NCBI GenBank assembly: GCA_030148165.1 | Contig: JASBTZ010000003.1 | Location: forward strand, 496,001 to 560,000 | From: Bacteroidota bacterium | GTDB taxonomy: Bacteria; Bacteroidota; Bacteroidia; Flavobacteriales_D; Crocinitomicaceae | DNA length: 64,000 bases | Direction: 5' to 3' | Part shown: piece after piece, positions 23,142-42,153 of the stretch | How positions within the stretch are numbered: position 1 is the first letter of the stretch | Layout: each line of letters starts with the position of its first letter | Translations under genes and position numbers: made by a program | The notes under the pieces: generated by a model | Told to the model about the DNA's origin: nothing | The model's input: the letters and a program-made list of their open reading frames with translations, nothing else | The model's database searches: none

Positions 23142-23150
23142 TACGATAAC

Positions 23151-25650: not shown

Positions 25651-25653
25651 ACT

Positions 25654-27486
25654 TTATTTTTCTAGTAGTTCATTGAATCTGTTCTTCAGCTCTGAAATTG
25701 TAAATGGCTGACCTTTAATCTTGTTATATCGTTCAAAGGTAAACTGTGGAAAGTTCGTCGTCAGATAACTTGCAAATTGACCATCGTTCAGTTCACACAC
25801 AACAATACGATCGAATTTTGAAAAGACTTCTGCCGTATTTGTCGGTAATGGGTGGATATAATTAAAGTTGGTGAAAGCAATATCCTTACCCTCCTCTTGC
25901 AGTTCGCTCACGGCACCCAAAAGAATTCCAAATTGACCTCCCCAACCAACTACCAGGAGTTTTTTCGCATCCTTACCTTTATAGCGTTGTTCCGGAATGT
26001 AATTGGCCACTCTAGCCACCTTCTCTTTTCGGATATTTACCATTTTCTGATGGTTTTCAGGATCATGTGATACTGCTCCGGATCCCTCTTCCTTTTCGAG
26101 TCCACCTATACGATGTTGAGTTCCTTGCATACCTGGAACAACCCATTTCCGAATTAATTTATCCGTAGCATGTTCATATGGCTGCCAATTATCTTTATCA
26201 CCATTCAATACAGGTGCTTCAATCACAGGAAGGTCCTGTATGGACTTAACCTGCCACGGTTCAGCGCCATTTCCCAAATAACTCTCAGACAATAAAATCA
26301 CTGGAGTCATATGCTCAATAGCAATTCGAACCGCTTCAAATGCCCATTGAAAACAATCACCCGGAGTACTTGCAGCCAGAACTACTAAGGGACATTCTCC
26401 ATTCCTTCCATACAAAGCCTGATTGAGATCACTTTGTTCTGTTTTAGTAGGTAGTCCGGTTGATGGGCCTCCTCGTTGAACATTGACTATTACTAACGGC
26501 AACTCCGTCATTACAGCTAAGCCAATTGCTTCTGTCTTCAATGCCATACCAGGACCTGAAGTTGTGGTGACGGCTACATCTCCTGCAAAGCTCGCACCGA
26601 TGGCAGAACAAATTCCTGCTATCTCATCTTCAGCCTGGAATATTTTAACACCAGACCATTTATGCTTTGTGAGCTCATGTAAAATATCTGTGGCAGGTGT
26701 AATCGGATACGTTCCCAAAAACAAGTCTCTGTTTGCCTTTTTAGCAGCTGCCATAAGTCCCCACGCAGTAGCTTGATTACCTGTCAGGTTCTTATAAATT
26801 CCAGGTTTTTTACTCGCTGGAAGTACAGTATACGATGACGTCACTGCTTCAATCGTCAAAGCATAATTATAGCCTGCCTGCAATGCATTAATGTTTGCTT
26901 TAGCTAATTCCGGTTTCTTGCTGAATTTAGCATTGAAGAAATCAATTGTCGGTTCCAGTGGATTACTAAACAACCAATAGACCATGCCTAGTGTAAACAT
27001 ATTTTTGCATCGTACTGCGCTTTTATTATCAAGCCCCAATTCAGCAACACTCAATTTGGTCATGGATGTGATGGGGGCGGTGATCAGGTTGTAATCTGCG
27101 AGTTCGTTCCCCTCCAATGGGTTTGAATCGAATCCTGCTTTTTCGAGATCTCTTTTACCAAAGGTGTCTGCATCCACAATAATCGTACACGCAGATTTGA
27201 GTTTGGACAGGTTTGCTTTTAAAGCCGCTGGATTCATCGCCACAAGGACGTCAGGAGCATCACCGGGGCTGTGAACACCCGATGAACCGAAATGAATCTG
27301 AAAGCCCGAGACTCCCGCCACAGTTCCTTGTGGGGCTCTTATCTCTGAAGGAAAATCAGGGAATGTTGCTATTTGATTTCCACGATTAACCGCCGTATTG
27401 GTGAACAGCGATCCAATAAGCTGCATTCCATCTCCTGAATCACCAGCAAACTTAATTACTGCTTTCTCTATAACAACACTTTCCAT
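25654..27486 (-). CDS. korA: 2-oxoacid:ferredoxin oxidoreductase, fused gamma-alpha subunit
   Basis: The 610-residue protein carries the gamma domain first (residues about 1-190, beginning FAGDSGDGMQLIGSLF). The alpha (pyrimidine-binding) domain follows from about 225 (GTYPITPATDILHEL, FQAEDEIAGICSAIGASFAG, TTSGPGMALKTEAIG, QRGGPSTGLPTKTEQSDL). The C-terminal domain ends near residue 610. With KorB it forms the oxidoreductase that turns a 2-oxoacid, CoA and oxidised ferredoxin into acyl-CoA, CO2 and reduced ferredoxin. It has no extra ferredoxin domain, so it needs a soluble ferredoxin such as the one at 17893. It lies 9 bases after the dehydrogenase/crotonase fusion. Confidence 0.9.
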   Translation of the reverse strand: MESVVIEKAVIKFAGDSGDGMQLIGSLFTNTAVNRGNQIATFPDFPSEIRAPQGTVAGVSGFQIHFGSSGVHSPGDAPDVLVAMNPAALKANLSKLKSACTIIVDADTFGKRDLEKAGFDSNPLEGNELADYNLITAPITSMTKLSVAELGLDNKSAVRCKNMFTLGMVYWLFSNPLEPTIDFFNAKFSKKPELAKANINALQAGYNYALTIEAVTSSYTVLPASKKPGIYKNLTGNQATAWGLMAAAKKANRDLFLGTYPITPATDILHELTKHKWSGVKIFQAEDEIAGICSAIGASFAGDVAVTTTSGPGMALKTEAIGLAVMTELPLVIVNVQRGGPSTGLPTKTEQSDLNQALYGRNGECPLVVLAASTPGDCFQWAFEAVRIAIEHMTPVILLSESYLGNGAEPWQVKSIQDLPVIEAPVLNGDKDNWQPYEHATDKLIRKWVVPGMQGTQHRIGGLEKEEGSGAVSHDPENHQKMVNIRKEKVARVANYIPEQRYKGKDAKKLLVVGWGGQFGILLGAVSELQEEGKDIAFTNFNYIHPLPTNTAEVFSKFDRIVVCELNDGQFASYLTTNFPQFTFERYNKIKGQPFTISELKNRFNELLEK

Positions 27487-27495: not shown

Positions 27496-29499
27496 CTATT
27501 TACCACTGTATGCTACCTTCTTTCCAATCGATGACAAGCCCAATAGAGCGTCATCTGTAGTGAAAATATCTCTCAGTCTCTCCAACTCAGACTGCGTTCC
27601 TCTTCCCTTATCTATTAGTTCTTCCGCTATATCCATCGCAACAGGAGCCTTGTATTTCATCACCTTTGTGAGTCGTTCCAAACGATCTGACGGCAACGAG
27701 TCACACGAATAATTTCCTTCCAGGATTTCTTTATAGGTACTTCCACCATACAAGCATGAAATGCCTTTCCAGTCGTCTACCAATTCAGACTCTTGTCTCA
27801 ATGGAACTCTTTTGACTCCTTCCGTAATATCAATAAGATCATCATAGCTGATCACATCATCAATTAGCCCTATTTCTTTGGCATCTTTTGCACCGATCAT
27901 ATCTCCGGTTAGGATGAGGTATTTTGCGAGTCCTTTACCAACTCGTATTGCTGTGCGCTGCGTGCCACCTAGTCCCGGGTAAATACCAATTCCTGTTTCC
28001 GGAAAAGCGATTTTTACATTTGGTAAAGCCAGAATAACATCTGCAGATAAAGCGAGTTCCATGCCGCCACCGAGGGTAAGTCCGTTAAGGATAGCAACTA
28101 CCTTCTTATCGCATTTATCAATTCGATTCAATATGTCATGTCCACGAGAGGTAAAGCTTATGATATTATCAATGCTGTTCTTTTTAATGTTTTTCACGAA
28201 GAACTTAATATCTGCACCAGCGACGAAGGCTTTACCTGATCCCGTCAATACAATTGTATCAACGGCGGAATCAGCCTCCGCTTTTTGAAAGACATCATTC
28301 AATTGCTCCATGACATCCTCATTTAAAGCGTTCAGGTCTTCCGGTCGTGACATGGTGATCGTCGCTACAGTGTCAACAATATCCAATGTGACATATTCCA
28401 TCTCCCAATTTGAAGTCTCAATTCCTCCCGGGATTTTTTCTCCGTACAAATTAGCATATGTTGATACCAGTTCTTTTACTCGTTCTACGCCATTTCGTAT
28501 CATCATATCAACAGGGCCCATCCTCCATCTTAAGCCGATTTTAGCTCCACGGTTCAGATCTACGGGAGTACAAACTTCCTCCGCCAAAATCTGTGAACAG
28601 ACGAAGAATACACTGCCCAACAGTCGTTCAGAAACTACTTTTTCCTGCTCTTCACTATAGGTGCACTCTTCTGTTCCGGACAAATCCCAATCTTCCCCTG
28701 CTTCTACTTGCTCTTCAAGTCTTTTAGAAACCAGATAGGACGGTCCGAAAACTTCTAAAGTCTTTTCTGCGTGCAATGCTATCGGAACCCCGGTGGCATT
28801 CATCAATGCGAAAGGCCCCATACCGATACCAAAAGTCTTCATCGCGATGGCATCAATCTGTGCAATGGTTGCAACATTTTCACCCAACAAGCGAACAGAC
28901 TCATTTAGCCAGGGAACAAAGAAACGATTGACTGCAAACCCATATCGGTCTTTCGTCAAGATCGGATCTTTACCAGACATAACGGAAAACACCTTAACAG
29001 CCTTGACCGTTTCATCGCTTGTATCCTTACCGGGAATGATCTCTACTAATCGGTTCTTTGCTGCATGATAGAAATAATGTAAGCCAACAAATCTTTCGGG
29101 ATGAGATACCGATTCCGCCATCTCAGTAACAGAAAATGACGATGTATTTGTGGCCAGAATAACATCAGAATCTACAATCTTGTCCAGTGTTTTAAATAGT
29201 GAACATTTAGCATCAAAATCTTCAAAAATCGCTTCGATGATTAAGTCGCACTTTTTAAGTTCATTCTGATCAGTTGCTGTGCTGATATTATTAATCGTAC
29301 GATTCATCATGTTTTCGGAGAACACATTTCGATCAACGCCTTGTTGAAGCGTTTCTTTAATTCCGTTTATTCCTTTCTCGAGGTATTGCTCCTCTCGATC
29401 GTTCAGAATAACAGCGAATCCTTGCTGTGCCATTTTCTGGGCAATCGCCGCTCCCATTGTCCCGGCTCCAACTACCCCTACAGTTTTTATCTTTTTCAT
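27496..29499 (-). CDS. 3-hydroxyacyl-CoA dehydrogenase / enoyl-CoA hydratase fusion (dehydrogenase first)
   Basis: This 667-residue bifunctional protein has a dehydrogenase half at about residues 1-385: the Rossmann motif VGVVGAGTMGAAIAQ, ATNTSSFSVTEMA, and HYFYHAAKNRLVEIIPG with the active His region. A crotonase half follows at about 395-600: GKAFVAGADIKFF, NGLTLGGGMELALSADV and FPETGIGIYPGLGGTQR with both catalytic Glu positions. The order is opposite to FadB/FadJ, where the hydratase comes first, and resembles archaeal crotonyl-CoA hydratase/dehydrogenase fusions. Expected role: 3-hydroxypimelyl-CoA to 3-oxopimelyl-CoA, and possibly glutaconyl/crotonyl-CoA hydration further down. Start 29499 is chosen because a longer frame would run 101 bases into dch without resembling the family. 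Confidence 0.88.
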   Translation of the reverse strand: MKKIKTVGVVGAGTMGAAIAQKMAQQGFAVILNDREEQYLEKGINGIKETLQQGVDRNVFSENMMNRTINNISTATDQNELKKCDLIIEAIFEDFDAKCSLFKTLDKIVDSDVILATNTSSFSVTEMAESVSHPERFVGLHYFYHAAKNRLVEIIPGKDTSDETVKAVKVFSVMSGKDPILTKDRYGFAVNRFFVPWLNESVRLLGENVATIAQIDAIAMKTFGIGMGPFALMNATGVPIALHAEKTLEVFGPSYLVSKRLEEQVEAGEDWDLSGTEECTYSEEQEKVVSERLLGSVFFVCSQILAEEVCTPVDLNRGAKIGLRWRMGPVDMMIRNGVERVKELVSTYANLYGEKIPGGIETSNWEMEYVTLDIVDTVATITMSRPEDLNALNEDVMEQLNDVFQKAEADSAVDTIVLTGSGKAFVAGADIKFFVKNIKKNSIDNIISFTSRGHDILNRIDKCDKKVVAILNGLTLGGGMELALSADVILALPNVKIAFPETGIGIYPGLGGTQRTAIRVGKGLAKYLILTGDMIGAKDAKEIGLIDDVISYDDLIDITEGVKRVPLRQESELVDDWKGISCLYGGSTYKEILEGNYSCDSLPSDRLERLTKVMKYKAPVAMDIAEELIDKGRGTQSELERLRDIFTTDDALLGLSSIGKKVAYSGK

Positions 29500-29509: not shown

Positions 29510-30283
29510 TTAACAATTTGTCCACTCCGGTTCTCGCTTCTCCAAAAAAGAATTGATTCCCTCATTCGCATCCTTGGTCTCCATAAGCTGTTTGGTATAC
29601 AGAAACTCAAGCTGAGGCAAGAAATTCCCGAGAATGTGATTAAATTTTATTCGAGCTGCTCTATTCGCAAACCTCAATGATGACGCGCTTTTTGGAAGTA
29701 TATATTTCTCTACCCATTGATCAACCCCTTCAGATAAGGCCTCGGCATCCGAATACAGGTGATTAACAAGTCCCATTCTTTCCGCTTCATTCGCTGTTAT
29801 TGATTTGCCGGTCATTAGTAGTTCCTCTGCCCTCGCATAACCAATTTTTAATGGTAATAAAACAGAAGCCGGTGGCGGAAATACCCCTAATACAATTTCC
29901 GGTTGACCAAAACGCGCACTTTCATCCGCAAAGATGAAGTTACAGATCAGTGCCAGCTCCATACCGCCTCCAAGACACTGACCCGAAACCTTCGCTAAAA
30001 ATGGAATGTGCAGCTCTGTAATTGTCATAAATAACTTGTGAAAAGTCCGAATCATTGTTTCTGCTAAGTCCTTCGTGTGTTCTTCAACACTCGCCCCGAA
30101 GGAGAAATGTTTCCCTTCACCTTCAATGATAATCAGCTTCAAATCATTATTCTCTTTAAACCCTTCGAATAGGTCTAACAATTCCAGCATCATGATATTA
30201 TCGAGCACATTGCCTTTACCATCATCCAGGATGATATTTGCAATCGAGCCGTCATGCGTATATTTTACTTTTAGCTTTTCCAT
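29510..30283 (-). CDS. dch: cyclohexa-1,5-diene-1-carbonyl-CoA hydratase
   Basis: The 257-residue crotonase-family enzyme hydrates the dienoyl-CoA made by benzoyl-CoA reductase to 6-hydroxycyclohex-1-ene-1-carbonyl-CoA. Crotonase landmarks are FSFGASVEEH (oxyanion loop 1) and GQCLGGGMELALICNFIF. The segment ARFGQPEIVLGVFPPPASVLLP, with its Pro-rich stretch after EIVLGVF, is characteristic of Dch/BzdW as I know them. Its place between oah and the hydroxyacyl-CoA dehydrogenase, with had close by, is the standard pathway neighbourhood. It lies 11 bases after oah. Confidence 0.87.
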   Translation of the reverse strand: MEKLKVKYTHDGSIANIILDDGKGNVLDNIMMLELLDLFEGFKENNDLKLIIIEGEGKHFSFGASVEEHTKDLAETMIRTFHKLFMTITELHIPFLAKVSGQCLGGGMELALICNFIFADESARFGQPEIVLGVFPPPASVLLPLKIGYARAEELLMTGKSITANEAERMGLVNHLYSDAEALSEGVDQWVEKYILPKSASSLRFANRAARIKFNHILGNFLPQLEFLYTKQLMETKDANEGINSFLEKREPEWTNC

Positions 30284-30294: not shown

Positions 30295-31398
30295 TTATTC
30301 CTGATTGGCTTCCTGAAACTGTGGAGAAATCAACTGGTGCATTTCATCGTTCCATTCGTGTCCTTCTGCCAATAATTGTCTCAGTTTTATAAAATTGATC
30401 TCCCGATCATGTTTAGGTCCTTCGTTAAATGCTCGGAAACCGGCTTTTGCTTCAGACATCATGTTCAATGCGAGCCACTCTCTGCTGCTTTCCTTGTTTC
30501 GGTCCCAATGTTCAAGTTTCTTCTTGCGAACTTCGGTCAATGACTTAGCAATACAATTTGGAAATGCATACAAAAGTTTCGCAACCGTTTTGTTCACGGC
30601 GTCATCCAATCTAGAGAGGTCAACTTCTCCTCGCTTTAAAAGTTCTTTACCTGCTGCGAGTTCCTCTCCTGTCTTCATTTGTCCGTACACAATGTCACCG
30701 TTTTCGTCCACAAAGCGATCAGTCACAACCAACGGATTAGTAATGAACTTGCTATCTACTTTTAATGCTGGAGCGATGTCTGTGATCAAGCCGATAAACT
30801 TGGCATAATGTGCCGTCCATTGATCGCATAAAGTCAGGGATTGCATCGCTCTTTCAATTCCTACATAGAGATGTAAAAAATCTGTTGATCCACCTATTGC
30901 GGCACTACCGTGCTTTGGTCCAGCCTGACCGAATCGTGCTAAATCTGAAGCTACGGTCAGATCACACGCCATTCCAATCTCTTGTCCACCTGCTATTCTC
31001 ATTCCATTCACACGGCAAATGACCGGTTTTTCGCATTTTAGAATTGCGGATACCATATCATTAAATAAGCGCATGTACTGGGAATACTCTTGTGGCTGAC
31101 CCGAGTAATACTCTGCGTATTCTTTTGTATTACCCCCGGTACAAAACGCCTTATCATCCACAGCGGTAAATATCACCGTAACTACACTTCGATCATTTGA
31201 AGCTTCACCAAAAGCAAGTATGACTTCTTTCACTGCCTTTGTCGTATAAGAGTTATACTGTGTAGGATTATTAAGCATGATCCATGCATTGTACAATCCT
31301 TCAACCGGACTTCCATCAACGTCAATAACCGGTCTTTTTTCAAATTTGATATCTGTATACTGATATCCCTCTACGATATTGTGATTCTTAAATTCCAT
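30295..31398 (-). CDS. oah: 6-oxocyclohex-1-ene-1-carbonyl-CoA hydrolase (ring-opening)
   Basis: This 367-residue, unusually long crotonase-family protein (Thauera Oah about 377) hydrates and hydrolytically opens the ring of 6-oxocyclohex-1-ene-1-carbonyl-CoA to give 3-hydroxypimelyl-CoA. The crotonase core is visible as DDKAFCTGGNTKEYAEYY and CRVNGMRIAGGQEIGMACDLTVASDLARFGQAGPKHGSAAIGGSTDFL. The last is a nearly invariant stretch of the Oah/BzdY/BamA group. BamA-type proteins are used as the marker of anaerobic aromatic degradation. Gene order had-oah-dch in one operon supports the call strongly. Confidence 0.92.
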   Translation of the reverse strand: MEFKNHNIVEGYQYTDIKFEKRPVIDVDGSPVEGLYNAWIMLNNPTQYNSYTTKAVKEVILAFGEASNDRSVVTVIFTAVDDKAFCTGGNTKEYAEYYSGQPQEYSQYMRLFNDMVSAILKCEKPVICRVNGMRIAGGQEIGMACDLTVASDLARFGQAGPKHGSAAIGGSTDFLHLYVGIERAMQSLTLCDQWTAHYAKFIGLITDIAPALKVDSKFITNPLVVTDRFVDENGDIVYGQMKTGEELAAGKELLKRGEVDLSRLDDAVNKTVAKLLYAFPNCIAKSLTEVRKKKLEHWDRNKESSREWLALNMMSEAKAGFRAFNEGPKHDREINFIKLRQLLAEGHEWNDEMHQLISPQFQEANQE

Positions 31399-31426: not shown

Positions 31427-32485
31427 TTATTGAAAATCCGGCACTAGAACCGAACGTTTATCATACTTATGTTCAAGCGTGTTTTTGAATACATCGTTGA
31501 TTTGTGACATTGGAAATGTCTCCACGAAATCATGAATTCTAAGCTGACCAGATGCAATCAAATCAACCACTTCCGGATATAATTCCGGTTTACATCCCCA
31601 GGTACCGATCAGCTTCGCATCAAATGCCATCAGGTTACTCAAGCGGACATTGAGCTTGTCCATAGTAAATCCAACTATGCTCATGGTGGATGTATATGTC
31701 AGTAGATTGAATGCCAGTTCCTGACCTGGTGTTGAACCCGATATCTCAAAAATCTTCCATCCATATTTCGATGCTCCGATATCTTTTGCAATTTGTCTAA
31801 CTTCATCTTTCACTTCCTTGATAGATTTACCGCCCGAATTCAGAATAGCATCGACTCCGTTGGCTTTTGCTTTAGCGAGTTTCTCATCACTGATGTCAAT
31901 CGCCAGTACTTTCGCCCCCATTATTTTCGCAAGAAGGGCTCCATATAATCCAACCCCACCTACTCCAATAACAATTGCAAAGTCTCCTGACTCAAGCTCT
32001 GATTTTTTTAATACCTGATAAGGGGTTGATATTGCGTCAGCAATTACCGCAAGTTGTTCAAGTGAATACTCTTCCAATACACTATCCGGAACAGGACATA
32101 GGTATTTATGCGGAACGACGATATGAGATGCAAAACCTCCGTGAAAATCATTGCCAGGCATGAGCTGATTCTGACACATGTTACTTCTCCCCTTTCTGCA
32201 CAACTCACAATCGCCACATGGAAGTACCGCTGGAATAATCACGTTTTTTCCTTCCAATTCAGGAGGACCGGATATAACGATTCCGCTAATTTCATGACCC
32301 AGCGTAAGTGGTAGTTCTTTCTTGGTCCTAACTCCGTCATGCCAGAAACTCAGGTCTGTGTGACAAACACCACAACCAGCGATTTTTACAATCGCTTCTT
32401 GGGTGCTGATCTCAGGCAAAGGAGACTCGGTAAGAACGAATTCTTCTTTAAGTTCCGTCATCTGCCATTGCTTCATATTCTCCAT
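31427..32485 (-). CDS. had: 6-hydroxycyclohex-1-ene-1-carbonyl-CoA dehydrogenase
   Basis: The 352-residue zinc-dependent alcohol dehydrogenase oxidises 6-hydroxycyclohex-1-ene-1-carbonyl-CoA with NAD+. Catalytic zinc residues are in CGVCHTDLSFWHDGVRTKK and LTLGHEISG. The structural zinc loop is CGDCELCRKGRSNMC. The nucleotide-binding segment is VIGVGGVGLYGALLAK, followed by an aspartate (LAIDISD) consistent with NAD+. An in-frame start at 32545 lies inside the thiolase gene and adds unrelated residues. I chose 32485 (MENMKQW); 32476 (MKQW) is equally possible. It sits between the thiolase and oah. Confidence 0.9.
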   Translation of the reverse strand: MENMKQWQMTELKEEFVLTESPLPEISTQEAIVKIAGCGVCHTDLSFWHDGVRTKKELPLTLGHEISGIVISGPPELEGKNVIIPAVLPCGDCELCRKGRSNMCQNQLMPGNDFHGGFASHIVVPHKYLCPVPDSVLEEYSLEQLAVIADAISTPYQVLKKSELESGDFAIVIGVGGVGLYGALLAKIMGAKVLAIDISDEKLAKAKANGVDAILNSGGKSIKEVKDEVRQIAKDIGASKYGWKIFEISGSTPGQELAFNLLTYTSTMSIVGFTMDKLNVRLSNLMAFDAKLIGTWGCKPELYPEVVDLIASGQLRIHDFVETFPMSQINDVFKNTLEHKYDKRSVLVPDFQ

Positions 32486-32495
32486 AATTCTCAAT

Positions 32496-33755
32496 TTATA
32501 GTGATGTATTTTCAAACAATATTGCTGTTCCCTGACCTCCGCCAATGCAAGCTGAGGCTATTCCGTATTTAACTCCTCTTTCTTTCATCTCACGGGAAAT
32601 TGTTAAAGACAATCTGGTACCTGTTGCGGCCAGTGGATGACCTAGTGCAATTGCTCCTCCGTTTACATTACAGATATCTCTATTTAGACCAAGTTCACGC
32701 TCACATCCGATGAATTGTGCTGCAAATGCTTCGTTGATCTCAATTAAGCCTATGTCATCAAGACTTAATCCAGCTACTTCCAATACTAATCGAATAGAAG
32801 GCACCGGTCCAAGTCCCATTACATTTGGATCCAAGGCGCTTGTCGCTGATGCAACGATACGCGATAAGGGTTTTAAACCGTTGGCATCGATAAATTCCTT
32901 GTTGGCGATAACAACAGAAGCGGCACCATCCACAATTCCACTTGAATTAGCTGCAGTCTGAACTCCATCACGTGCAAATACGGACGGTAATTTAGCCATG
33001 GATTCAAGATCGGCCGGTCTCACATTCTCATCGACATTGAAATCAGACACCTTTCGTGGTAAGAAAACTTTACGTGGTTTGAGACCTTCGAGCTCAAAAA
33101 CTTCGGAGTTCATTTTTATCACTTCACCTTCAAAGAAGCCTCGCTCCTTTGCGGCCAGATACCGATCTATTGAAAGCTTGGCGAATTCGTTCGCATCAGC
33201 TTTTGAAATGTTGTGCTTTTCAGCAACGTTCTCTGCAGTACAACCCATTGGAACAGCCGCAGTATCATTTAATGCTTCCCAGAGCATGTCTTTAAAGTCA
33301 ATCTTTCCGAGTGGATAGCCCATTCTGTTTCCAAAGCTCACTGTTGGGGAAAGGGTCATGTTTTCAGTACCTCCACAGAGAGCCGTATTGGCCTTTCCTA
33401 AGGCAATTTGTTCTGCACCGGCAATTATTGTTTCGAATCCTGAGCCACAAATCCTTTGTAACATAACCGCAGGTATACCGACAGGAATCCCACTGTATAA
33501 GCCAATATGTCTCGGAAGGAAATAAGAATCTGCTGAACTCTGTCCAATGTTTGCGTACATCAGTTGATCAATATCTTCTCCTTTTACACCTGAATTTTGA
33601 AGTGCAGCCTTTGTAGCATAAATACCTAAATCGGTAGGTGAAACGCGACCAAGAGTCCCACATAGTTTACCAAATGGTGTTCTTGCTCCATTAATGAGAT
33701 AAGTATCATCATACGTTATCGCTATACCCTTTTCTTTATCGTGGATTCCTTTCAT
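32496..33755 (-). CDS. acetyl-CoA acyltransferase (thiolase)
   Basis: The 419-residue thiolase has the acyl-accepting Cys 103 (RICGSGFETI), the active His 373 (GGAIALGHPLAATG) and the second catalytic Cys 403 (SACIGGGQGTAI). It most likely cleaves 3-oxopimelyl-CoA with CoA into glutaryl-CoA and acetyl-CoA, the last step of the upper benzoyl-CoA pathway. It could also serve acetoacetyl-CoA. About 16 residues precede the usual thiolase start. The ATG overlaps the stop of the upstream fusion gene by 4 bases (ATGA), which supports this longer start and translational coupling. Confidence 0.9.
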   Translation of the reverse strand: MKGIHDKEKGIAITYDDTYLINGARTPFGKLCGTLGRVSPTDLGIYATKAALQNSGVKGEDIDQLMYANIGQSSADSYFLPRHIGLYSGIPVGIPAVMLQRICGSGFETIIAGAEQIALGKANTALCGGTENMTLSPTVSFGNRMGYPLGKIDFKDMLWEALNDTAAVPMGCTAENVAEKHNISKADANEFAKLSIDRYLAAKERGFFEGEVIKMNSEVFELEGLKPRKVFLPRKVSDFNVDENVRPADLESMAKLPSVFARDGVQTAANSSGIVDGAASVVIANKEFIDANGLKPLSRIVASATSALDPNVMGLGPVPSIRLVLEVAGLSLDDIGLIEINEAFAAQFIGCERELGLNRDICNVNGGAIALGHPLAATGTRLSLTISREMKERGVKYGIASACIGGGQGTAILFENTSL

Positions 33756-35605
33756 TTTACTTCTATTTTTTCTTGATTACTTTTCTTGTATTGCTTTTTC
33801 ATCCAGTGTTTCTGTGCAATAATTGCTGCACCGAGAGACACCGTGTGCTGTGGTTCGTCCACAATGGTTATTTCCCGATTGAACTTTTCGTGTAGTAATG
33901 ATCCCAGATATGGGTGATTTGCTATTACCCCACCGATCATAACTGTCGGAACGTCCGGTAATAATTTCATTTTGGCTACTTTGCCAGCAATGGACAGGTA
34001 AATACCCCTGGATATGTCTTCAATGGAAATGCCGTCAAATATCCATTGCATGATCTCCGTTTTAGCGAAAACAGTACAGAAGCTATTCAGCTCTTTATCA
34101 TAAACCGAATTGGCCGCAAGCCTACTCATTTCTGAAACGTCCACTTCCGCCCTCTCTGCTATCTCAGATAAAAATGATCCGGTTCCAGCTGCGCATTTAT
34201 CATTCATATAAAAGTTCGTGACCTGATTATTTTCGTCACAATGAATCACTTTGATGTCTTCTCCTCCTATATCGATAATTGTTTTCTCACCTGAAATATC
34301 TCGTGATACGCCAGCTGCTGCGCAATTGATCTCCGTTTTGATAATGTCCGACTCAATAAAGTGTTTTCTGCCATAGCCGGTAGCGCAGCTGTATTTGATA
34401 TCAAAATCAGTATGAATAGCCTTCATCACCTGTCGGTGAGCTAATCGGTCTCTGTTCAGCGTTTGCAGTGTATATCTGAAAACAACATTTTGTTTTTCAT
34501 CAATGACGGTGAATTTGATGTATGCTGAGCCAAGATCTACTCCGAGGAAACAATCACCTCCCTGGTAAATCACGGATGACTTCTTATCCTTGACAATTCC
34601 CTTTTTAATAATTCCTCTTGCAAAAGAACCAGCTGCACCCGGAATTCGGGAAGCGATATTCTTGTTAGTCATGGCCTTTACCATGTTTGTAAAGGCTAGA
34701 TTTAGTGAGGTTCGCACGTAGTGCTTTTTTCCATATTCAACGATCTTGCCATTGAAGTAATCAATCTCTGTCTGACGGTTATTGATTACATCTCCAGCCA
34801 GGGATGGAAAGTGATTTCCTCCTTTCTTGAGGTAGCGCATGCATCTGCGGATAAAATCATCGGGGAATTTAATTTTCTCAGCTTCAGCGACAATTACTGC
34901 CTCATTGATTATTTGCTCAATAAGTTCAACTGTATCTGGATCAGCCATTGCTTCAGCCATTGTCAACCGACCAACACCACAGAGTGCGCTTAGAGAAGAA
35001 TTTAAAATGGTCTTTTCCCAGGTTCGTTTCAGCAATTCGAATGAATCAATTGCTTTAGTATGCAATTCAACTGAATTTAATATCTCAGCAAACTCTTCTG
35101 CTTTTTCACTTCTATTATCGTCAATTGATCCCAGATAATTAGGTGGTGTGAAGAATGTTACCTTCACGACGTTTGGAGCACTTAGGTTTCCTGCATAATT
35201 GATCACCATTCTCAGGATTCGATCAGAACCGAACACGGGAATAAGCAGTTGTTCCACATCAATTCCATTTTGAGCTGAAACGACAGTTAATTCTCCATCA
35301 CTAAGTTTTAATGCTTGCTGCGCTGCTTTCTCAATTTGATACGACTTAAGCGAAAAGACCAGATAATCCATTTGAACTTTTGCCTCGATTAATTCTTCAA
35401 TGGAACCATATACCTCATCGAAAAAGGTAGTCGATTCCATTACGCCTTCCAGTGTAATTCCTTCGCTTTTAATTAGATTAAGTTTGATCTTGTTCCGAAC
35501 ACAAAGAATGACTTCGCAACCGGCTTCTTTCAGCTTAACCGCCATGATCATTCCGACCGGTCCTACACCTACTATGGCAACTCTTATTTTCTTTTTCTGA
35601 TTCAT
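33752..35605 (-). CDS. fusion of ketopantoate-reductase-like domain and BadF/HgdC-type ATPase activase
   Basis: This 617-residue protein joins two families I have not seen joined before. Residues 1-310 are ApbA/PanE-like: Rossmann motif VGVGPVGM (12-19), QNG (112-114), catalytic-type Lys 198 and Asn 202 in TWEKTILNSS, and the family tail DYFNGKIVEYGKKH. From about 350 to 600 lies a BadF/BcrA/HgdC ATPase: LGVDLGSAYIKFTV, CAAGTGSF with Cys 471, LNSFCTVFAKTEI with Cys 510, and IGGVIANHPY. The two Cys are the usual ligands of the [4Fe-4S] cluster bridging the activase dimer. It follows the HgdB-like gene with no gap (TAGATG) and overlaps the thiolase. Likely role: ATP-driven electron injection into the HgdB-like partner; the reductase half suggests 2-oxo/2-hydroxyacid chemistry. 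Function unproven. Confidence 0.85.
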   Translation of the reverse strand: MNQKKKIRVAIVGVGPVGMIMAVKLKEAGCEVILCVRNKIKLNLIKSEGITLEGVMESTTFFDEVYGSIEELIEAKVQMDYLVFSLKSYQIEKAAQQALKLSDGELTVVSAQNGIDVEQLLIPVFGSDRILRMVINYAGNLSAPNVVKVTFFTPPNYLGSIDDNRSEKAEEFAEILNSVELHTKAIDSFELLKRTWEKTILNSSLSALCGVGRLTMAEAMADPDTVELIEQIINEAVIVAEAEKIKFPDDFIRRCMRYLKKGGNHFPSLAGDVINNRQTEIDYFNGKIVEYGKKHYVRTSLNLAFTNMVKAMTNKNIASRIPGAAGSFARGIIKKGIVKDKKSSVIYQGGDCFLGVDLGSAYIKFTVIDEKQNVVFRYTLQTLNRDRLAHRQVMKAIHTDFDIKYSCATGYGRKHFIESDIIKTEINCAAAGVSRDISGEKTIIDIGGEDIKVIHCDENNQVTNFYMNDKCAAGTGSFLSEIAERAEVDVSEMSRLAANSVYDKELNSFCTVFAKTEIMQWIFDGISIEDISRGIYLSIAGKVAKMKLLPDVPTVMIGGVIANHPYLGSLLHEKFNREITIVDEPQHTVSLGAAIIAQKHWMKKQYKKSNQEKIEVK

Positions 35606-36824: not shown

Positions 36825-38552
36825 CTACTTGTGCTTTTTATCTAATTCTATGATGTACACCTCTTCATCTACCGGGACCTCGTCACCATATAAATTCTTG
36901 AGGTGTGCTTTATATTTTTCTACAACATTTTTTGGTGCCATTTTGAGCGATGGTGTTAATGTTCGATCATCCAGGTTCAATTCATCCATAATGATCGCGG
37001 CAGATTTCACTTTTGCGAACTTCTGTCCAATTGTATTATTCGCCATATGCATACAGCCTGTCAAACATTTACCTAGTTCATTTAAGCTTCTGGGGCAAAA
37101 ACAACCTTCTTCCGGTGAAATCGAATAATCCGGATTCTCCAGTAGTTTTTTATTCGGAAAGATTAATGCCACCGGATATTCTTCACCGCTACCTGAAACG
37201 ACGGCGTACTGCACGTAATGGCATTTCTTTTCGATTGCTTTTTCAAGATCTGTGGGTATCACTTTTTCTCCGTTGGAAAGCTTAAAAATTCGATCCTTTC
37301 TGGATATCAGTTTGAGACCATTTGGCGTAATTGCTCCAACATCTCCTGTTCGATACCAACCATCTTCAGTGAATGCATCAGCATTGGCCTCATCGTTCTT
37401 ATAGTAGCTAACCATCACATTTGGGCCCTTCACCTGTATTTCATCGTCATCAGCAATGCGAATGGAAACACCCGGTATCGGTTTACCTACTACTCCCGTT
37501 TCTCTTTTAATATCAGGATCAGTTAAAGTGCAACAAGGTGAAGTTTCGGTCAAACCCCAACCCTCAATAACTTTTATATCTCTCGCTTCAAATTCATTCG
37601 AAAGTTTTTCGGGAAGTGCTGCTGCAGCCGTAAAAATGAACTTCAGTCCTGAATTAAAGAAAATATCCTGTGCCTCTTTATCATCATTTGTCATTTCATA
37701 AAGCGACTGGTATACCTTGGGAACACTGAAGAATATGGTTGGCCGGACTAGCTTCCAATTCTCAAATATCGATTTAACATCTCTTCCGTAGCTGCTTTCT
37801 AGTGAGTAGGTTGCACCGTTGTAAAGTGCTGTAAACAATTCGAAAATCCCTCCAAAGCTATGATGCCATGGTAGATAAGACAAGAACCGATCGTGCTCAT
37901 CCACATCCCATAAGATATCCAGGGCTGCTTGTTGTGACAGGATGTTTCCATGCGTAAGCTGGACACATTTTGGAATACCCATCGTTCCTGAAGTATACAT
38001 GTTCAGGCAAATCGTGTCCGGATCCAAATTGAATTTTAATCTAGAGTGTTCAGCAGGTTCCTGCTGAATTAAAATATTGAAGGGAACTAATTGGGGAAGC
38101 CGCTTATCACTATCAACGTGAAATCCGTATATCTTTTTCACTTTAAGATCTGCACTTAAATTGGCCAACTGTTGTTCCCCTGCTATTGCCAGCCATTCCG
38201 CGTCTGAATGATTGATCAACAACTCAGCAGTATCCTTTTTGAAATTTGCAAAAATCGGTACAACGATACCCCCGAAAGCCATTACAGCAAGCTGTAATTC
38301 GAGCATTTCCCAGCAATTTCTTGAAAAGATAACCATTTTGTCACCCGGCCTAAATCCTTCGTTTTCAAGGCCCGTTGCAATTCGCTGAACATTTAAATAG
38401 AGCTCATCCCAGGTATGATTCTGATAAACCCCACTATCATCTTTTTCACGATAAACAATGTGTTCACCAAATCGTTCTGTGTTCTTAATAAGCAAAGTAG
38501 CTATGTTCGGTAATACCGGACCCAACTTCTTTTCTGCGTGCAACTCCTTCAT
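36825..38552 (-). CDS. AMP-forming acyl-CoA synthetase (substrate unknown)
   Basis: This 575-residue adenylate-forming ligase is of the long-chain acyl-CoA synthetase type. Landmarks are the phosphate loop YTSGTMGIPKCVQLTHGN near residue 190, GWGLTETSP near 335, DGWYRTGDVG, KLISRKDRIFKLSNGEKV and the C-terminal LTPSLKMAPK with the adenylation Lys. The phosphate loop departs from the consensus TSGTTGxPKG at two positions (Met for Thr, Cys for Gly). A Cys-rich insertion, CFCPRSLNELGKCLTGC, lies near residue 485. By context it activates an aromatic acid (benzoate or 4-hydroxybenzoate), or the 2-hydroxyacid that the neighbouring dehydratase-like module would use. The family resemblance is to fatty-acid ligases rather than to benzoate-CoA ligase, so the substrate is open. 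Confidence 0.8.
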   Translation of the reverse strand: MKELHAEKKLGPVLPNIATLLIKNTERFGEHIVYREKDDSGVYQNHTWDELYLNVQRIATGLENEGFRPGDKMVIFSRNCWEMLELQLAVMAFGGIVVPIFANFKKDTAELLINHSDAEWLAIAGEQQLANLSADLKVKKIYGFHVDSDKRLPQLVPFNILIQQEPAEHSRLKFNLDPDTICLNMYTSGTMGIPKCVQLTHGNILSQQAALDILWDVDEHDRFLSYLPWHHSFGGIFELFTALYNGATYSLESSYGRDVKSIFENWKLVRPTIFFSVPKVYQSLYEMTNDDKEAQDIFFNSGLKFIFTAAAALPEKLSNEFEARDIKVIEGWGLTETSPCCTLTDPDIKRETGVVGKPIPGVSIRIADDDEIQVKGPNVMVSYYKNDEANADAFTEDGWYRTGDVGAITPNGLKLISRKDRIFKLSNGEKVIPTDLEKAIEKKCHYVQYAVVSGSGEEYPVALIFPNKKLLENPDYSISPEEGCFCPRSLNELGKCLTGCMHMANNTIGQKFAKVKSAAIIMDELNLDDRTLTPSLKMAPKNVVEKYKAHLKNLYGDEVPVDEEVYIIELDKKHK

Positions 38553-38563: not shown

Positions 38564-39421
38564 TTAAACTACGACAGCAGCTTCTTGTTCTTTTAGTTTA
38601 TAGTATCTGAAGCCACCCCAAATCGCAGCGCCAATAGCGCCTGAATAGATAGCATCAGGATGAGATATAAACTCAAAGTTTTTCTTCTTGTTCTCTGCGG
38701 CTAATTCTTCTACAGCCTGAATCATTCCTTCATTCATCCCCATTCCTCCCATCAATGCAATTGGTGATTCAGCCTTAAGTGCACCTAAAAGCTTGACCAC
38801 TCGTTGGGCTATTGAAAGGTTGATTCCTTTCACAATATTCGGTGTAGAGAGCCCCTTGGACACCAGGTTAATCACATCTGTCTCCGCTAATACTGCGCAA
38901 ATACCTGATGGAACTTCAGGATTGTCCGCCTGCAATGAGAGAGGTCCGACTTCTTCAATAGCCAAACCGAGATAACGGGAAATATTTTCTATGAACTGAC
39001 CAGACCCCGAAGCACATTGTCCGGTCATCTTATAGTCAAGGACTTTCCCCCTGTTATCCACTCTGATCGCTCTAACATAAAGCCCTCCCATATCAACCAC
39101 TGTTTTTGCAGCCGGAGCAAAGAAGATTCCTCCTCGAGCATGCGTAGTCATACTATAGAAGTGCCCAGTTTTCTTATCGACCATTTCGCCTTCTCCGGTT
39201 GATGCCAGATAAGCAATATCATTATCATAGGATAGATTCTGACGTTCAAGTAAGGTGTCAACTAATTCGACCACAACATCCTTGGGATTACGTTTTCTAA
39301 TCTTTTCAGTTTGTTTATCGATCAATTTGTGTTCTCCTGAGTCATTATCATATTTCATTATGACACCTTTGACGTAACTTCCTCCGACGTCTACACCCAT
39401 TGTATATATTGAATCACTCAT
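38564..39421 (-). CDS. bcrD: benzoyl-CoA reductase subunit D (BadG/BcrD ATPase)
   Basis: The 285-residue ASKHA-fold ATPase subunit has MGVDVGGSYVKGVIM (phosphate 1), a second phosphate segment VVDMGGLYVRAIRV, and the cluster-ligand Cys 136 (GQCASGSGQF) and Cys 175 (SGICAVLAETDV). Together with BcrA it forms the heterodimeric electron-activating module that couples ATP hydrolysis to ferredoxin-driven reduction of benzoyl-CoA. The length is that of Thauera BcrD (about 282). It lies 18 bases after bcrA in the canonical order C-B-A-D. Confidence 0.92.
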   Translation of the reverse strand: MSDSIYTMGVDVGGSYVKGVIMKYDNDSGEHKLIDKQTEKIRKRNPKDVVVELVDTLLERQNLSYDNDIAYLASTGEGEMVDKKTGHFYSMTTHARGGIFFAPAAKTVVDMGGLYVRAIRVDNRGKVLDYKMTGQCASGSGQFIENISRYLGLAIEEVGPLSLQADNPEVPSGICAVLAETDVINLVSKGLSTPNIVKGINLSIAQRVVKLLGALKAESPIALMGGMGMNEGMIQAVEELAAENKKKNFEFISHPDAIYSGAIGAAIWGGFRYYKLKEQEAAVVV

Positions 39422-39439: not shown

Positions 39440-40849
39440 CTAGACTGTTTTCTTCTCATTAACCGGTAGATCAACACTGATATTTCTTCTGGCAAACATG
39501 GCTCCACCCAGTGCTCCCATGAAGATGGAATCCGTATGGATATTCATGGTGACTTCTCCATAAGCATCCGTTACCATTTGTTTTACATACTTCAAGACAG
39601 CTTGATTCCTTGCGACACCACCGGTGAAGGTGAATTCATTTCTTACCCCACCCGAACGTGCTATTAAGGACATTGCCCTCTGGACTATGGCTTTGTGCAA
39701 GCCGGCAAGTATATTTGGTCGTTTTTCACCATTATGAAGCAGCTCTTTAACTTCTGCTCCTGCGAAGACAGTACAGGTTGAGCATATGGTTGTTTCCTTA
39801 TCGGCCTTCATCGCTTCAGGTCCCAATTCATTCAAAGAAATACCGAATTCATCCGCGATATAACCCAAGTAGCGACCGCAACCGGCAGCACACCGGTCAT
39901 TCATGTGAAAGCTCGTAACGAGACCATTCTTGTCAACTTGGATAGCCTTAGTATCTTGTCCACCGATATCAAGGACAGTTCTTGTATCCGGAAACACTGC
40001 GTGTGCTCCGAAAGCGTGACAGAGGATTTCAGATTTAATACAGTCTTCCGGGAATGGTAATAAGGCTCTTCCATAACCTGTTCCGACCATCTTGGCGATA
40101 TAGATGTCTTCGTTCGCAATATCTTCGATGTGCTCGCGAATTGTATATTCGACATTCTTATAGTTATTCTTGACTGCATTGAGTTCAGCCCAATACCAAT
40201 CTTCCTTGCTACCATCCTCTTGCTGATCTGCCAATCCTTCATACTTCTCTTCCAGCTCCGCCATGGATTCATTTACCAACTCTTTAAAGTTGTATTTCAC
40301 CATTTCATTCTCAACGGGCGTAATACTTTTATCGAATGCCAACAGTAGCGGTTCGTAAAACTCTTTGTCCAACTTCTCGACTTCCTCGTTATATCGCTCA
40401 CTAACAATATCCCGAAAGAATTGATTTTTAGATCCGAGATTTTCGATTAAAAACTCCTTCCTAATCTGAGGTCGAATGGTTTCAATGATTTTATTCAATT
40501 CCGAAGCGATAGCATCTTTGTTTTCATATTCAAATTCACTAACTGTTTGTTTCAACAACTGCTCGAGACTGTCCATTCGCCGTTTAAATTGTCTGTACTG
40601 AAAAACGGAGCGAATATCTTCCATGTACTTTTTAAACTCCGGCTTTTGGTCCATATCTTTCCTGATAGCATTGGACAACAAGGTGAATCTAGCATCATAA
40701 ATTGCTTCTTCCTTAGCTATATCCGCCGCGACCTTGTAGTTCGCTCGCGTATTTGTTATTCCTCTCCCTAATATTTCATCATTTTCATCGATGATGACGG
40801 CTTTGGAAGTTGTTGAACCCAGGTCTATTCCTAAATAATATTTCTTCAT
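39440..40849 (-). CDS. bcrA: benzoyl-CoA reductase subunit A (BadF/BcrA ATPase)
   Basis: The 469-residue larger ATPase subunit begins GIDLGSTTSKAVII and contains VLDIGGQDTKAIQV. The [4Fe-4S] ligands are Cys 320 (DRCAAGCG) and Cys 359 (CSTCTVFAGAEV). Compared with the 260-residue activases it has a charged, helical insertion of about 170 residues between roughly 40 and 215, as in Thauera/Rhodopseudomonas BcrA/BadF (about 437). This insertion helps place the system in the Bcr rather than the Bzd subclass. With BcrD it transfers electrons to the BcrBC catalytic module. Confidence 0.92.
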   Translation of the reverse strand: MKKYYLGIDLGSTTSKAVIIDENDEILGRGITNTRANYKVAADIAKEEAIYDARFTLLSNAIRKDMDQKPEFKKYMEDIRSVFQYRQFKRRMDSLEQLLKQTVSEFEYENKDAIASELNKIIETIRPQIRKEFLIENLGSKNQFFRDIVSERYNEEVEKLDKEFYEPLLLAFDKSITPVENEMVKYNFKELVNESMAELEEKYEGLADQQEDGSKEDWYWAELNAVKNNYKNVEYTIREHIEDIANEDIYIAKMVGTGYGRALLPFPEDCIKSEILCHAFGAHAVFPDTRTVLDIGGQDTKAIQVDKNGLVTSFHMNDRCAAGCGRYLGYIADEFGISLNELGPEAMKADKETTICSTCTVFAGAEVKELLHNGEKRPNILAGLHKAIVQRAMSLIARSGGVRNEFTFTGGVARNQAVLKYVKQMVTDAYGEVTMNIHTDSIFMGALGGAMFARRNISVDLPVNEKKTV

Positions 40850-40866: not shown

Positions 40867-42153
40867 TTAAACTGTCTCTTTTTCCATTGATTTTCGCTGC
40901 GCTAACATCTGGAAATAGGACTCTAATCTGTTTTTGATATTGGAGTATGAGAAGTAGCGAGGATCTACCAGGTCTGATTCGATAAATCCGACCGGCACTT
41001 CAAGTCGATCTTCTATTTCGCGCATCATACCGAGCTGACCTGCCGAGAATGAGTTGCAGCTTTTAATCGAGTTAGTTACGTATCCGTCGGCATCATAATC
41101 CTCAATGCATTTGGAAAGTAAGTCGATTCGTTGAGGTATGTTCATGTTGGTATAGCAATTCATACAATATTCCGCCAACGATTCCAATGGACGATTTGCA
41201 TCATGTCGCCAGCCCATATCGTAAACTCCTCCAACTTTCGTATAGGATGAAGCAACAATGACTGCTCCCATGTCGTAAAAGATCTTCCAAAATTCCCTGA
41301 AAGAAGTCCAGTTCGGAGGACCTTCAACAACAAGTCGATATTTCTCTTCCTTCATTTCTCCTTCCGGAGTAATCGGACCTAAACCATTTTTAATGCGGTC
41401 TTGAATTTCGCTGTATAATTCCTTGTAATATTCAACAGCTTGTTCTGTACCTCTAAAGCCTATATTGATTGGTCCTATGTAATATACTCCCGCGAAATAC
41501 GCATCTATAGGAGAAGGCTTGTGCTTCGTTGTATCAAATATTTTTGTGATCCAATCTTCCGCCTCTTTGGAGAGTCTTAAGTGAGCTTTCAATTTTTCTT
41601 CATCAAACTTGATCCCAGATACTTCCTCCATTTGTGGTATGACTTCCTCCTTTAATTGTTTGACCATATACTGGGTCATCTCGGGAGTGATCTCAGCATT
41701 TTCCTGATATGGAGTATGGACCATAATGACTTTTGCATTCGGGTACTCACGCTTTAAAGTCTCAAACCACTTCAGGAATGTAAAACAGCCCGTATAACTT
41801 AACAGAAGGACATCCGGTTCAGGTATCTTTTGACCTGTTGGGCCAATATTACCCTTCATCATCATTCCAACATCACATTTTACGTAGGTGCAAACATCTT
41901 CTGAATGGGCGTTCTTCTCCGCTTCCTTTATGTAACCCCCTGATTTCTTTCTCATCGCACTTTGAAGTGCATTAATCTCAGGATAAACAGGTAGCATGTC
42001 GAACGTGCGAATCAGTTCTGAAAGGTTTCCAGGGATGAACGTATAACACACCTTCTTTCCATCTTCTTTGGCTGTTGCCAATTGATTAAAAAGTCCTTCT
42101 ACCATCTCCTTCTGGAGAATCATACTTTTTTCTTTTTGTGCTTCTTTAGCCAT
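40867..42153 (-). CDS. bcrB: benzoyl-CoA reductase subunit B
   Basis: The 428-residue catalytic subunit, with BcrC, binds benzoyl-CoA and carries out the two-electron Birch-type ring reduction. Expected cluster ligands are Cys 88 (EDVCTYVKCDVG), Cys 123 (LSYTGCFTFLKWF) and Cys 366 (NSIKSCNSFSAGQ). Other family phrases include VEGPPNWTSFREF and IESDLVDPRYFS. Length agrees with Thauera BcrB (about 438). It lies 20 bases after bcrC and 17 bases before bcrA. Confidence 0.93.
   Translation of the reverse strand: MAKEAQKEKSMILQKEMVEGLFNQLATAKEDGKKVCYTFIPGNLSELIRTFDMLPVYPEINALQSAMRKKSGGYIKEAEKNAHSEDVCTYVKCDVGMMMKGNIGPTGQKIPEPDVLLLSYTGCFTFLKWFETLKREYPNAKVIMVHTPYQENAEITPEMTQYMVKQLKEEVIPQMEEVSGIKFDEEKLKAHLRLSKEAEDWITKIFDTTKHKPSPIDAYFAGVYYIGPINIGFRGTEQAVEYYKELYSEIQDRIKNGLGPITPEGEMKEEKYRLVVEGPPNWTSFREFWKIFYDMGAVIVASSYTKVGGVYDMGWRHDANRPLESLAEYCMNCYTNMNIPQRIDLLSKCIEDYDADGYVTNSIKSCNSFSAGQLGMMREIEDRLEVPVGFIESDLVDPRYFSYSNIKNRLESYFQMLAQRKSMEKETV

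Follow-up and report, generated by a model that had tools for sequence, protein, structure and literature searches.

A stretch of 64,000 nucleotides from a bacterium of the family Crocinitomicaceae, phylum Bacteroidota (GenBank assembly GCA_030148165.1, contig JASBTZ010000003.1, positions 496,001 to 560,000 of the forward strand; the whole stretch is referred to below as the window), codes on its minus strand for a 617-residue protein (33752-35605) in which a reductase of the ketopantoate reductase (KPR, PanE) type is joined to an acyl-coenzyme A (CoA) dehydratase activase. This fusion represents a conserved family and not a single oddity, and it sits inside a class I benzoyl-CoA reductase (bcr) cluster, directly beside the gene for a HadB-like protein that is named HgdB3 here. 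The reading that we favor, at roughly an even chance, is that the fusion serves as a bifunctional helper of a radical dehydratase, within a compact module that would lead from a 2-oxoacid through an (R)-2-hydroxyacid, its CoA ester and a 2-enoyl-CoA to an aroyl-CoA. The parts themselves are known; what is new, within the literature searched, is the fusion, the HadB-like partner devoid of a beta subunit and the nearly fixed place of both in the benzoyl-CoA cluster.

The fusion protein and its conservation

The gene is read in a single frame, from an ATG start through 617 codons to one stop. Its reductase domain covers residues 7-312 (34670-35587, minus strand, as for all parts of the gene), followed by a linker of residues 313-353 (34547-34669) and an activase domain of residues 354-597 (33815-34546). 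All three Pfam families are matched above their cut-offs, namely ApbA at residues 9-157 (83.3 bits, cut-off 22.2), ApbA_C at residues 192-312 (100.3 bits, cut-off 22.7) and BcrAD_BadFG at residues 354-597 (127.6 bits, cut-off 31.5), as are the NCBIfam models TIGR00745 for the reductase half (residues 8-314, 170 bits, cut-off 141.35) and TIGR00241 for the activase half (residues 354-596, 158.6 bits, cut-off 125.4). The initial annotation of the DNA, which had proposed a complete reductase and a complete activase in one 617-codon frame, is thereby borne out, with the strand now added. The residues that it named are likewise in place: the motif given as 12-19 is GVGPVG at 13-18, and QNG is found at 112-114, next to Lys198, Asn202, Cys471 (34193-34195) and Cys510 (34076-34078).

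Asn113, Gly114, Lys198, Asn202, Ser268, Glu280, Cys471 and Cys510 are invariant both among 79 near-full-length members of the family and among the 53 sequences of an alignment, A1, that combines the window with 52 of 54 representatives (L008 and L016 being left out) obtained by thinning 78 loci at 85% identity. Gly13, Gly15 and Gly18 of the dinucleotide motif are conserved at no less than 90% in A1. The Lys, Asn and Glu of the reductase half presumably have the catalytic roles of their KPR counterparts. In activases the bridging [4Fe-4S] cluster is held by two Cys from each monomer (PMC11574389), and the fusion supplies two invariant Cys per chain, C471 and C510, for such a cluster.

Of the solved sequences HadI gives the activase half its best match (155 bits), ahead of MbdQ (131) and HgdC (130), and by fold HadI, MbdP and HgdC are tied (Z 27.8, 27.8 and 27.7). 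The activase half remains below the NCBIfam equivalog cut-offs for BcrA (103.2 bits, cut-off 578), BcrD (63.5, cut-off 312.85) and BzdQ (87.8, cut-off 380.2). At residues 447-450 the sequences of A1 carry GGED, where HadI and MbdQ have GGQD. A single-chain AlphaFold model of the fusion has a mean predicted local distance difference test (pLDDT) of 85.2 and a predicted template modeling score (pTM) of 0.54; the latter makes the placement of the two domains relative to each other unreliable, and within the linker the pLDDT falls below 50 at residues 314-326 and 340-346.

Genome contigs were scanned with the whole fusion protein, and the best 80 of 100 relatives were kept as loci; ranking by whole-protein match favors fused copies, and unfused ones surfaced in a separate search. 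A single open reading frame (ORF) spans the junction in all 80 kept loci, and in 78 of them it covers the protein from end to end, beginning at or before residue 60 and ending at or beyond residue 580; contig ends truncate the other two, L069 and L071. By record title the loci belong to Flavobacteriales and other Bacteroidota, Ignavibacteria, one Chlorobiota, one Thermoanaerobaculia and three Marinimicrobia (L081-L083), the last with 42% identity; one locus titled Competibacteraceae may be mis-binned. Among the 60 genomes nearest to that of the window (its own included), only the window's genome carries the fusion, while seven others match the reductase half alone. Of 395 genomes sampled from the phylum, again with its own included, three code for a BcrB over the cut-off, and in a fourth that matches the model (G218) only an HgdB3-like protein is found. 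Part of the fusion is matched by 337 of 72,556 plasmid records, none of which covers 80% of it.

HgdB3, a HadB-like protein without a dedicated beta subunit

The gene for HgdB3, the third HGD-D protein of the genome (35606-36823, minus strand, 405 residues), lies immediately upstream of the fusion, its stop codon abutting the start codon of the latter. Of the 72 loci with more than 2.2 kb of upstream sequence, 70 have it ahead of the fusion in the same orientation, the exceptions being L048 and L049. All four bcr genes occur in 54 of the 56 loci with more than 8.5 kb upstream; L039 has three of them and L048 none, though the genome of L048 (G477) nonetheless carries three HGD-D proteins. When pairwise distances were correlated between genes, with each ORF assigned by best match and the Marinimicrobia loci left out, HgdB3 and the fusion gave the best value of the nine genes for HgdB3 (r 0.65). 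Its correlations with the reductase subunits were lower (BcrC 0.44, BcrD 0.43, BcrB 0.40, BcrA 0.40), whereas the Bcr subunits correlate with one another at 0.93-0.96. The value for thiolase and HgdB3 was unstable (0.61 versus 0.29), probably since different thiolase ORFs were taken, and is not used.

Sequence and fold both place HgdB3 nearest to HadB. Pairwise scores are 174 bits for HadB, 116 for MbdO and 59 for BzdO, and profile scores are 201, 159 and 107, respectively. In fold comparison a predicted model of HgdB3 (pLDDT 89.0) matches HadB with Z 47.9 (2.0 Å over 391 residues), ahead of BzdO (44.6), MbdO (42.2) and the double-cubane cluster protein, DCCP (33.0). HgdB3 nevertheless stays below the HadB equivalog NF052455 itself (230.3 bits, cut-off 750), as well as those of BcrB (175.6, cut-off 486.55) and BzdO (61.2, cut-off 448.6) and the double-cubane model (67.6, cut-off 350). 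Assignment as a BcrB equivalog or as a member of the DCCP family was rejected on these profile scores, which lie far under the cut-offs.

In a second alignment, A2 (the window plus 27 sequences, thinned from 75 loci; n=28), Cys31, Cys80, Cys119, Cys290, Cys347, Ser33 and Glu51 of HgdB3 are invariant. HMMER pairs Ser33, Glu51, Cys80, Cys119 and Cys347 with Ser37, Glu55, Cys84, Cys117 and Cys346 of HadB, which we take to be its active site. The BzdO counterparts are Ser44, Glu65, Cys95, Cys128 and Cys380, as given in PMC11971306. The two remaining invariant Cys, 31 and 290, are kept in the genomes G117, G352 and G218 and are absent from the BcrB of the window. Cys290 is aligned by HMMER with a Cys of DCCP, and it is the sole DCCP-aligned one seen beyond the three of HadB type; the DCCP residue would be a cluster ligand in that protein. 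Against the six Cys that serve as ligands of an [8Fe-9S] double-cubane cluster, HgdB3 has five invariant ones. Its residues could point to an unusual cluster.

Exactly three HGD-D proteins (BcrB, BcrC and HgdB3) are encoded in the genome of the window, and three are also found in G117 and G352. The same number was counted in 37 of 40 fusion genomes, which represent 40 of the 80 loci; of the others, one has six, as two sets of three placed on two contigs, and two have a single one. G218 codes for three full-length proteins (BzdN, BzdO and HgdB3), besides which there is one half-length match (47.9 bits). With three such proteins per genome, HgdB3 is left without a dedicated beta subunit.

Unfused copies of the two halves

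In G352, a genome of the same phylum (one contig, 3.86 Mb), the same cluster order is seen with the halves of the fusion as separate genes: HgdB3, the reductase gene, a pair of Mo-hydroxylase genes (TIGR03194 947.7 bits, below the cut-off of 994.55), the activase gene, thiolase, had and oah. G218 has a reductase cluster of the bzd type, in which BzdN (485.1 bits), BzdO (658.6) and BzdQ (444.6) all exceed their cut-offs, and it codes for an HgdB3 that is 64% identical to that of the window, two copies of the reductase and one activase, all unlinked. One of its reductase copies adjoins genes resembling XdhC, MobA and an FAD subunit; stops were flagged inside the matched stretch of this copy and of the activase, yet their frames are open across the aligned region. 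The fused state is thus not obligatory. On the strength of these two genomes HgdB3, the reductase and the activase look like one functional set, fused or not, that accompanies class I ring reduction of either the bcr or the bzd type.

A tree of each domain was built with G117, the split copies and 23 of the 79 fused rows; in both of them the split copies form one group. This group lies between the Marinimicrobia and the Bacteroidota fusions in the unrooted KPR tree and joins the Marinimicrobia in the activase tree with weak support (92/45), so that the trees fit either fission or two fusions.

The reductase half and its likely product

The solved structures closest in sequence to the KPR half are D-mandelate dehydrogenases (80 and 77 bits), followed by an uncharacterized protein of Enterococcus faecalis (74), one of Ralstonia (61) and the ketopantoate reductases of Thermococcus (59) and E. 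coli (23). By fold, one D-mandelate dehydrogenase entry ties with several ketopantoate reductases at Z 37.2-37.9; it reaches 37.3, against a top value of 37.9, and the other entries of that enzyme range from 28.8 to 35.6. We know of no flavin, Fe-S cluster or other one-electron centre in the KPR family, and for this reason the two halves of the fusion should share a pathway and not an electron wire. Characterized enzymes of the KPR type yield (R)- or D-2-hydroxyacids. The described dehydratases act on (R)-2-hydroxyacyl-CoA, as stated in PMC8473912, and the handedness of the two halves therefore fits.

A proposed route into ring reduction

The module would begin with an NAD(P)H-dependent reduction by the KPR domain, in which a 2-oxoacid, with an arylpyruvate as the most likely candidate, would give the (R)-2-hydroxyacid. 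This could then be converted to the 2-hydroxyacyl-CoA by the CoA ligase, whose gene lies two places upstream of the fusion. From this ester HgdB3, as its sequence and fold suggest, would remove water across the alpha and beta carbons by way of a ketyl radical at its [4Fe-4S] cluster, probably without a separate beta subunit. The starting electron would be pushed in by ATP hydrolysis in the activase domain, acting as a dimer with a [4Fe-4S] cluster held by Cys471 and Cys510 of each chain. Enzymes of the cluster might finally hydrate, oxidize and thiolyze the enoyl-CoA to an aroyl-CoA for reduction by BcrABCD, either benzoyl-CoA or 4-hydroxybenzoyl-CoA that the neighboring Mo enzyme would dehydroxylate. 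The coupling of 2-hydroxyacid formation to the start of the dehydratase, already suggested by the initial annotation, stays the most economical reading of the complete domains, the HadB-like neighbor and the likeness to D-mandelate dehydrogenases; that HgdB3 is the enzyme fired by the activase is what we infer.

The substrate is proposed to be aromatic because of the bcr or bzd setting, the 4-hydroxybenzoyl-CoA-reductase-like enzyme nearby, the likeness to D-mandelate dehydrogenases and the lack of any benzoate-CoA ligase over the TIGR02262 cut-off in 22 genomes (those of 18 of the 80 fusion loci and four others). As no ligase exceeds that cut-off, benzoyl-CoA may arise otherwise or through the ligase of the cluster. 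A route from phenylpyruvate through phenyllactyl-CoA and cinnamoyl-CoA to benzoyl-CoA has been proposed for a benzene degrader (PMC13416013). An arylpyruvate as the actual substrate is put forward tentatively, and with less confidence than the module as such. Still more speculative, and in our estimate rather unlikely, is a fuller version in which HgdB3 would be a beta-less radical enzyme with an undescribed cluster site, formed by three HadB-type Cys together with Cys31 and Cys290 at the pocket; its activase would be permanently joined to the substrate-making reductase, and with the Cys-rich domain of the ligase these proteins would make up one assembly from arylpyruvate to aryl-enoyl-CoA, through which carbon from phenylalanine and tyrosine would reach benzoyl-CoA ring reduction without oxygen in a group of Bacteroidota, Ignavibacteriota and Marinimicrobia.

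Several points weigh against the proposed module. The activities of the fusion and of HgdB3 are predictions, and the tied fold scores do not fix the substrate class of the KPR half by structure. Cys31 and Cys290 of HgdB3, both invariant, have no counterpart in HadB. The described 2-hydroxyacyl-CoA dehydratases are alpha-beta heterodimers in which electrons enter at the beta subunit (PMC11574389), and a beta subunit dedicated to HgdB3 was found in none of the 37 fusion genomes with three HGD-D proteins (of 40), nor in G117 and G352. The beta-oxidation genes of the cluster give weak support, as the lower benzoyl-CoA pathway needs them anyway. No aminotransferase was recognized in the window's cluster, and the sole one seen beside a KPR copy is of the hisC type, next to the second reductase copy of G218 (L114), which has Ile in place of the catalytic Asn202. 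As to the ligase, the full AMP-forming enzyme is missing in 30 of the 80 loci, 27 of which yielded a ligase of different ancestry; none of the ligases found in G218 has the Cys motif; weaker matches of benzoate-ligase type occur in 21 of the 22 genomes; and the ligase of the cluster may be a plain benzoate-CoA ligase.

Alternative explanations

Given its near-obligate place in bcr clusters (54 of 56 loci) and its persistence beside a bzd-type reductase in G218, HgdB3 could instead be an additional reductase of the benzoyl-CoA pathway that is driven by ATP, acting on a substituted or partly reduced ring or in the rescue of a dead-end product, with the reductase domain working on a ketone of the pathway and not on a free 2-oxoacid. 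The extra invariant Cys31 and Cys290, the latter aligned with a Cys of DCCP, would suit such a role, and the double-cubane protein does reduce small molecules, as described in PMC11971306. We regard this explanation as possible but rather doubtful, since in both sequence and fold HadB is a closer match to HgdB3 than MbdO, BzdO and DCCP are, since HgdB3 is far below the BcrB cut-off, and since the KPR half is a clear member of the KPR and D-2-hydroxyacid dehydrogenase family. A distinctly less probable arrangement would have BcrC shared between two alpha-like partners, one of them HgdB3 as an alternative catalytic subunit, with the activase of the fusion firing the hybrid dimer. BcrC is indeed the only beta-like protein on hand where three HGD-D proteins are encoded (37 of 40 fusion genomes as well as G000, G117 and G352). 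The correlation of HgdB3 with BcrC (0.44) is nevertheless far from the 0.96 of BcrB and BcrC, and G218 has BzdN, of the bzd type, as its sole full-length beta-like protein, while its HgdB3 is still 64% identical to that of the window.

That the KPR half is the pantoate-forming PanE of the cell, fused to an activase by chance, is very improbable, even though the genome of the window has PanB and, with the fusion as query, no other KPR homologue. PanB is present in 56 of the 60 nearest genomes and a match to the KPR half in only eight (the window's own genome being counted in both), and pantoate synthesis in the clade thus seems independent of this protein, with the caveat that a very distant reductase could escape the search with the KPR half. 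The gene moreover lies inside a bcr cluster, and G218 has two KPR copies. The probability that an assembly or sequencing error joined two separate genes, the doubt raised with the initial annotation, is negligible: the junction is crossed by one ORF in each kept locus, over many assemblies, end-to-end relatives are numerous, and nothing was found in favor of an artefact.

Relation to described systems

The proposed module, a 2-oxoacid reductase with CoA activation and activase-fired dehydration, has its nearest likeness in the (R)-2-hydroxyisocaproyl-CoA dehydratase system of Clostridioides difficile (HadBC and HadI), to whose HadB and HadI the best matches of HgdB3 (by sequence and fold) and of the activase half (by sequence) belong. 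The order of steps implied for the module is that of this system, in which the reductase, LdhA, is of the D-lactate dehydrogenase type and HadA is a transferase. The module differs by the union of reductase and activase in one protein and by the KPR type of its reductase; moreover, CoA would be attached by a ligase, no HadC-like beta subunit is present and the setting is a ring-reduction cluster. With a substrate derived from phenylpyruvate, the module would arrive at cinnamoyl-CoA, as does the phenyllactate dehydratase of Clostridium sporogenes (FldABC and FldI). In that organism the enzyme is part of a reductive fermentation, with FldB and FldC as separate proteins; the comparison with the Fld set is one of description.

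With the class I benzoyl-CoA reductases (BcrABCD, BzdNOPQ and MbdONQP) the module shares the superfamily and, as regards bcrCBAD, the neighborhood, yet HgdB3 and the fusion are far under the cut-offs for BcrB, BzdO, BcrA, BcrD and BzdQ. DCCP and DCCP-R likewise combine a single kind of HGD-D subunit with an activase, and Cys290 falls on a Cys of DCCP, but HgdB3 differs from DCCP in its profile score (67.6 bits against a cut-off of 350), its fold score (Z 33.0) and its Ser33 and Glu51, which are as in HadB. The KPR half, with its set of Lys, Asn, Ser and Glu, resembles the D-mandelate dehydrogenase and ketopantoate reductase family and has the GxHxPS and TEIDxxNG stretches in common with the D-mandelate dehydrogenases, from which it differs in the attached activase and in Ser206, where those enzymes carry Asn.

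Within the literature collection and the terms searched, no paper was found that describes the fusion or names a pair of benzoyl-CoA-reductase-type activase and ketopantoate reductase. The initial annotation knew of no described protein with this domain order, and this holds to that extent; the bcr clusters, of which the gene is a conserved part, did not figure in it. The described activases are separate electron pumps, and fusion to a reductase that would make the substrate departs from this pattern. The conserved fusion, the lone HadB-like protein and the ring-reduction cluster together name a partner and a step for a gene pair that is unannotated in many uncultured bacteria. They make testable whether a HadB-type dehydratase can work without a beta subunit, and whether aromatic 2-oxoacids enter the benzoyl-CoA pathway by alpha-dehydration, and the 80 loci offer an ample choice of homologues for expression.

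Genes of the cluster and its variants

The cluster runs on the minus strand from 43358 to 24625. It begins with genes for subunits of the BcrC type (42174-43358, TIGR02263 430.9 bits, cut-off 421.15), the BcrB type (40867-42153, TIGR02260 671.8 bits, cut-off 486.55), the BcrA type (39440-40849, 469 residues, TIGR02259 425.9 bits) and the BcrD type (38564-39421, TIGR02261 315.7 bits, cut-off 312.85), of which the BcrA type misses its own cut-off of 578 whereas the three others pass. An AMP-forming acyl-CoA ligase (36825-38552), HgdB3 and the fusion follow, and then a thiolase (32496-33755, TIGR01930 365.5 bits, cut-off 240.55), whose gene overlaps the 3' end of the fusion by 4 bases, 6-hydroxycyclohex-1-ene-1-carbonyl-CoA dehydrogenase (Had, 31427-32545, TIGR03201 450 bits, cut-off 338.65) and 6-oxocyclohex-1-ene-1-carbonyl-CoA hydratase (Oah, 30295-31398, TIGR03200 581.1 bits, cut-off 464.45). 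The next gene resembles dienoyl-CoA hydratase (Dch, 29510-30283), its best NCBIfam match being TIGR03189 with 227.3 bits, below the cut-off of 292.5; it is followed by one for a 3-hydroxyacyl-CoA dehydrogenase and enoyl-CoA hydratase (27496-29499), which has no model over its cut-off among the NCBIfam matches listed. The run ends with a korAB-like pair for a 2-oxoacid:ferredoxin oxidoreductase (24625-27486), in which the alpha subunit (25654-27486) passes TIGR03710 (642.5 bits, cut-off 482.75) and the beta subunit (24625-25650) is below the cut-off of TIGR02177 (241.1 bits, cut-off 261.9). This pair is the likely ferredoxin source.

On the plus strand, a region at 18233-24083 codes for a Mo enzyme resembling 4-hydroxybenzoyl-CoA reductase (20367-24083) together with short-chain dehydrogenase/reductase, XdhC-like and MobA-like proteins; the Mo enzyme is below both cut-offs (TIGR03194 828.9 bits, cut-off 994.55; TIGR03195 195.9 bits, cut-off 404.55). 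The small ORF that adjoins it (24086-24610, plus strand) appears hemerythrin-like by eye and has no NCBIfam match at 1e-20, and a family resembling it recurs in nine loci.

The C-terminal domain of the cluster ligase (about 36828-37304) is rich in Cys, with five of them at residues 444, 484, 486, 496 and 500. The cluster ligases of G000, G117 and G352 share this domain, which occurs in none of the 15 other ligase loci found in four genomes; several of these loci overlap one gene. In the fetched stretches a full AMP ligase is present in 40 of the 80 loci, the Cys-bearing domain alone in 30 and neither in ten. The stand-alone domain has about 155-165 residues and mostly lies between HgdB3 and the fusion (in L014, for example, at 9492-9977); 31 such short ORFs were listed, including a fragment at a contig edge (L008), and the motif is complete in all but that of L072, where one Cys is gone. 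The ligase of other ancestry mentioned above is a family of ORFs of about 710 residues upstream of the fusion, seen in those 27 loci and also in L042 and L060; the one member checked, that of L014, matches NDP-forming acyl-CoA synthetases below the cut-offs. In L042 a remnant of the AMP ligase (residues 355-521) lies beside it, and L060, which also has this ORF, is exceptional, its HgdB3 belonging to the opposite type and no Cys domain being found there. Between loci of one ligase type HgdB3 proteins are 81% alike, and between loci that differ in it 67%, the widest gap among the genes compared. Judged by this distribution, the Cys domain seems mostly tied to HgdB3.

Further gene families accompany the fusion in some loci. 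Downstream of it, a hydantoinase A-like family is seen in nine (L005, L006, L007, L009, L021, L031, L035, L070 and L078), joined by a hydantoinase B-like gene in eight and an acyl-CoA dehydrogenase gene in seven, with one member of each checked against Pfam; these genes are of no help in reading the function of the fusion. Between bcrA and bcrD a saccharopine-dehydrogenase-like family, likewise with one member checked in Pfam, is present in seven loci (L022, L037, L043, L055, L062, L063 and L075). A second ORF of the enoyl-hydratase and hydroxyacyl-CoA-dehydrogenase kind, of about 670-735 residues from stop to stop, lies directly 3' of the fusion in 16 loci, namely L005, L006, L007, L009, L021, L024, L035, L045, L053, L056, L058, L065, L070, L074, L078 and, with a shorter ORF, L016.

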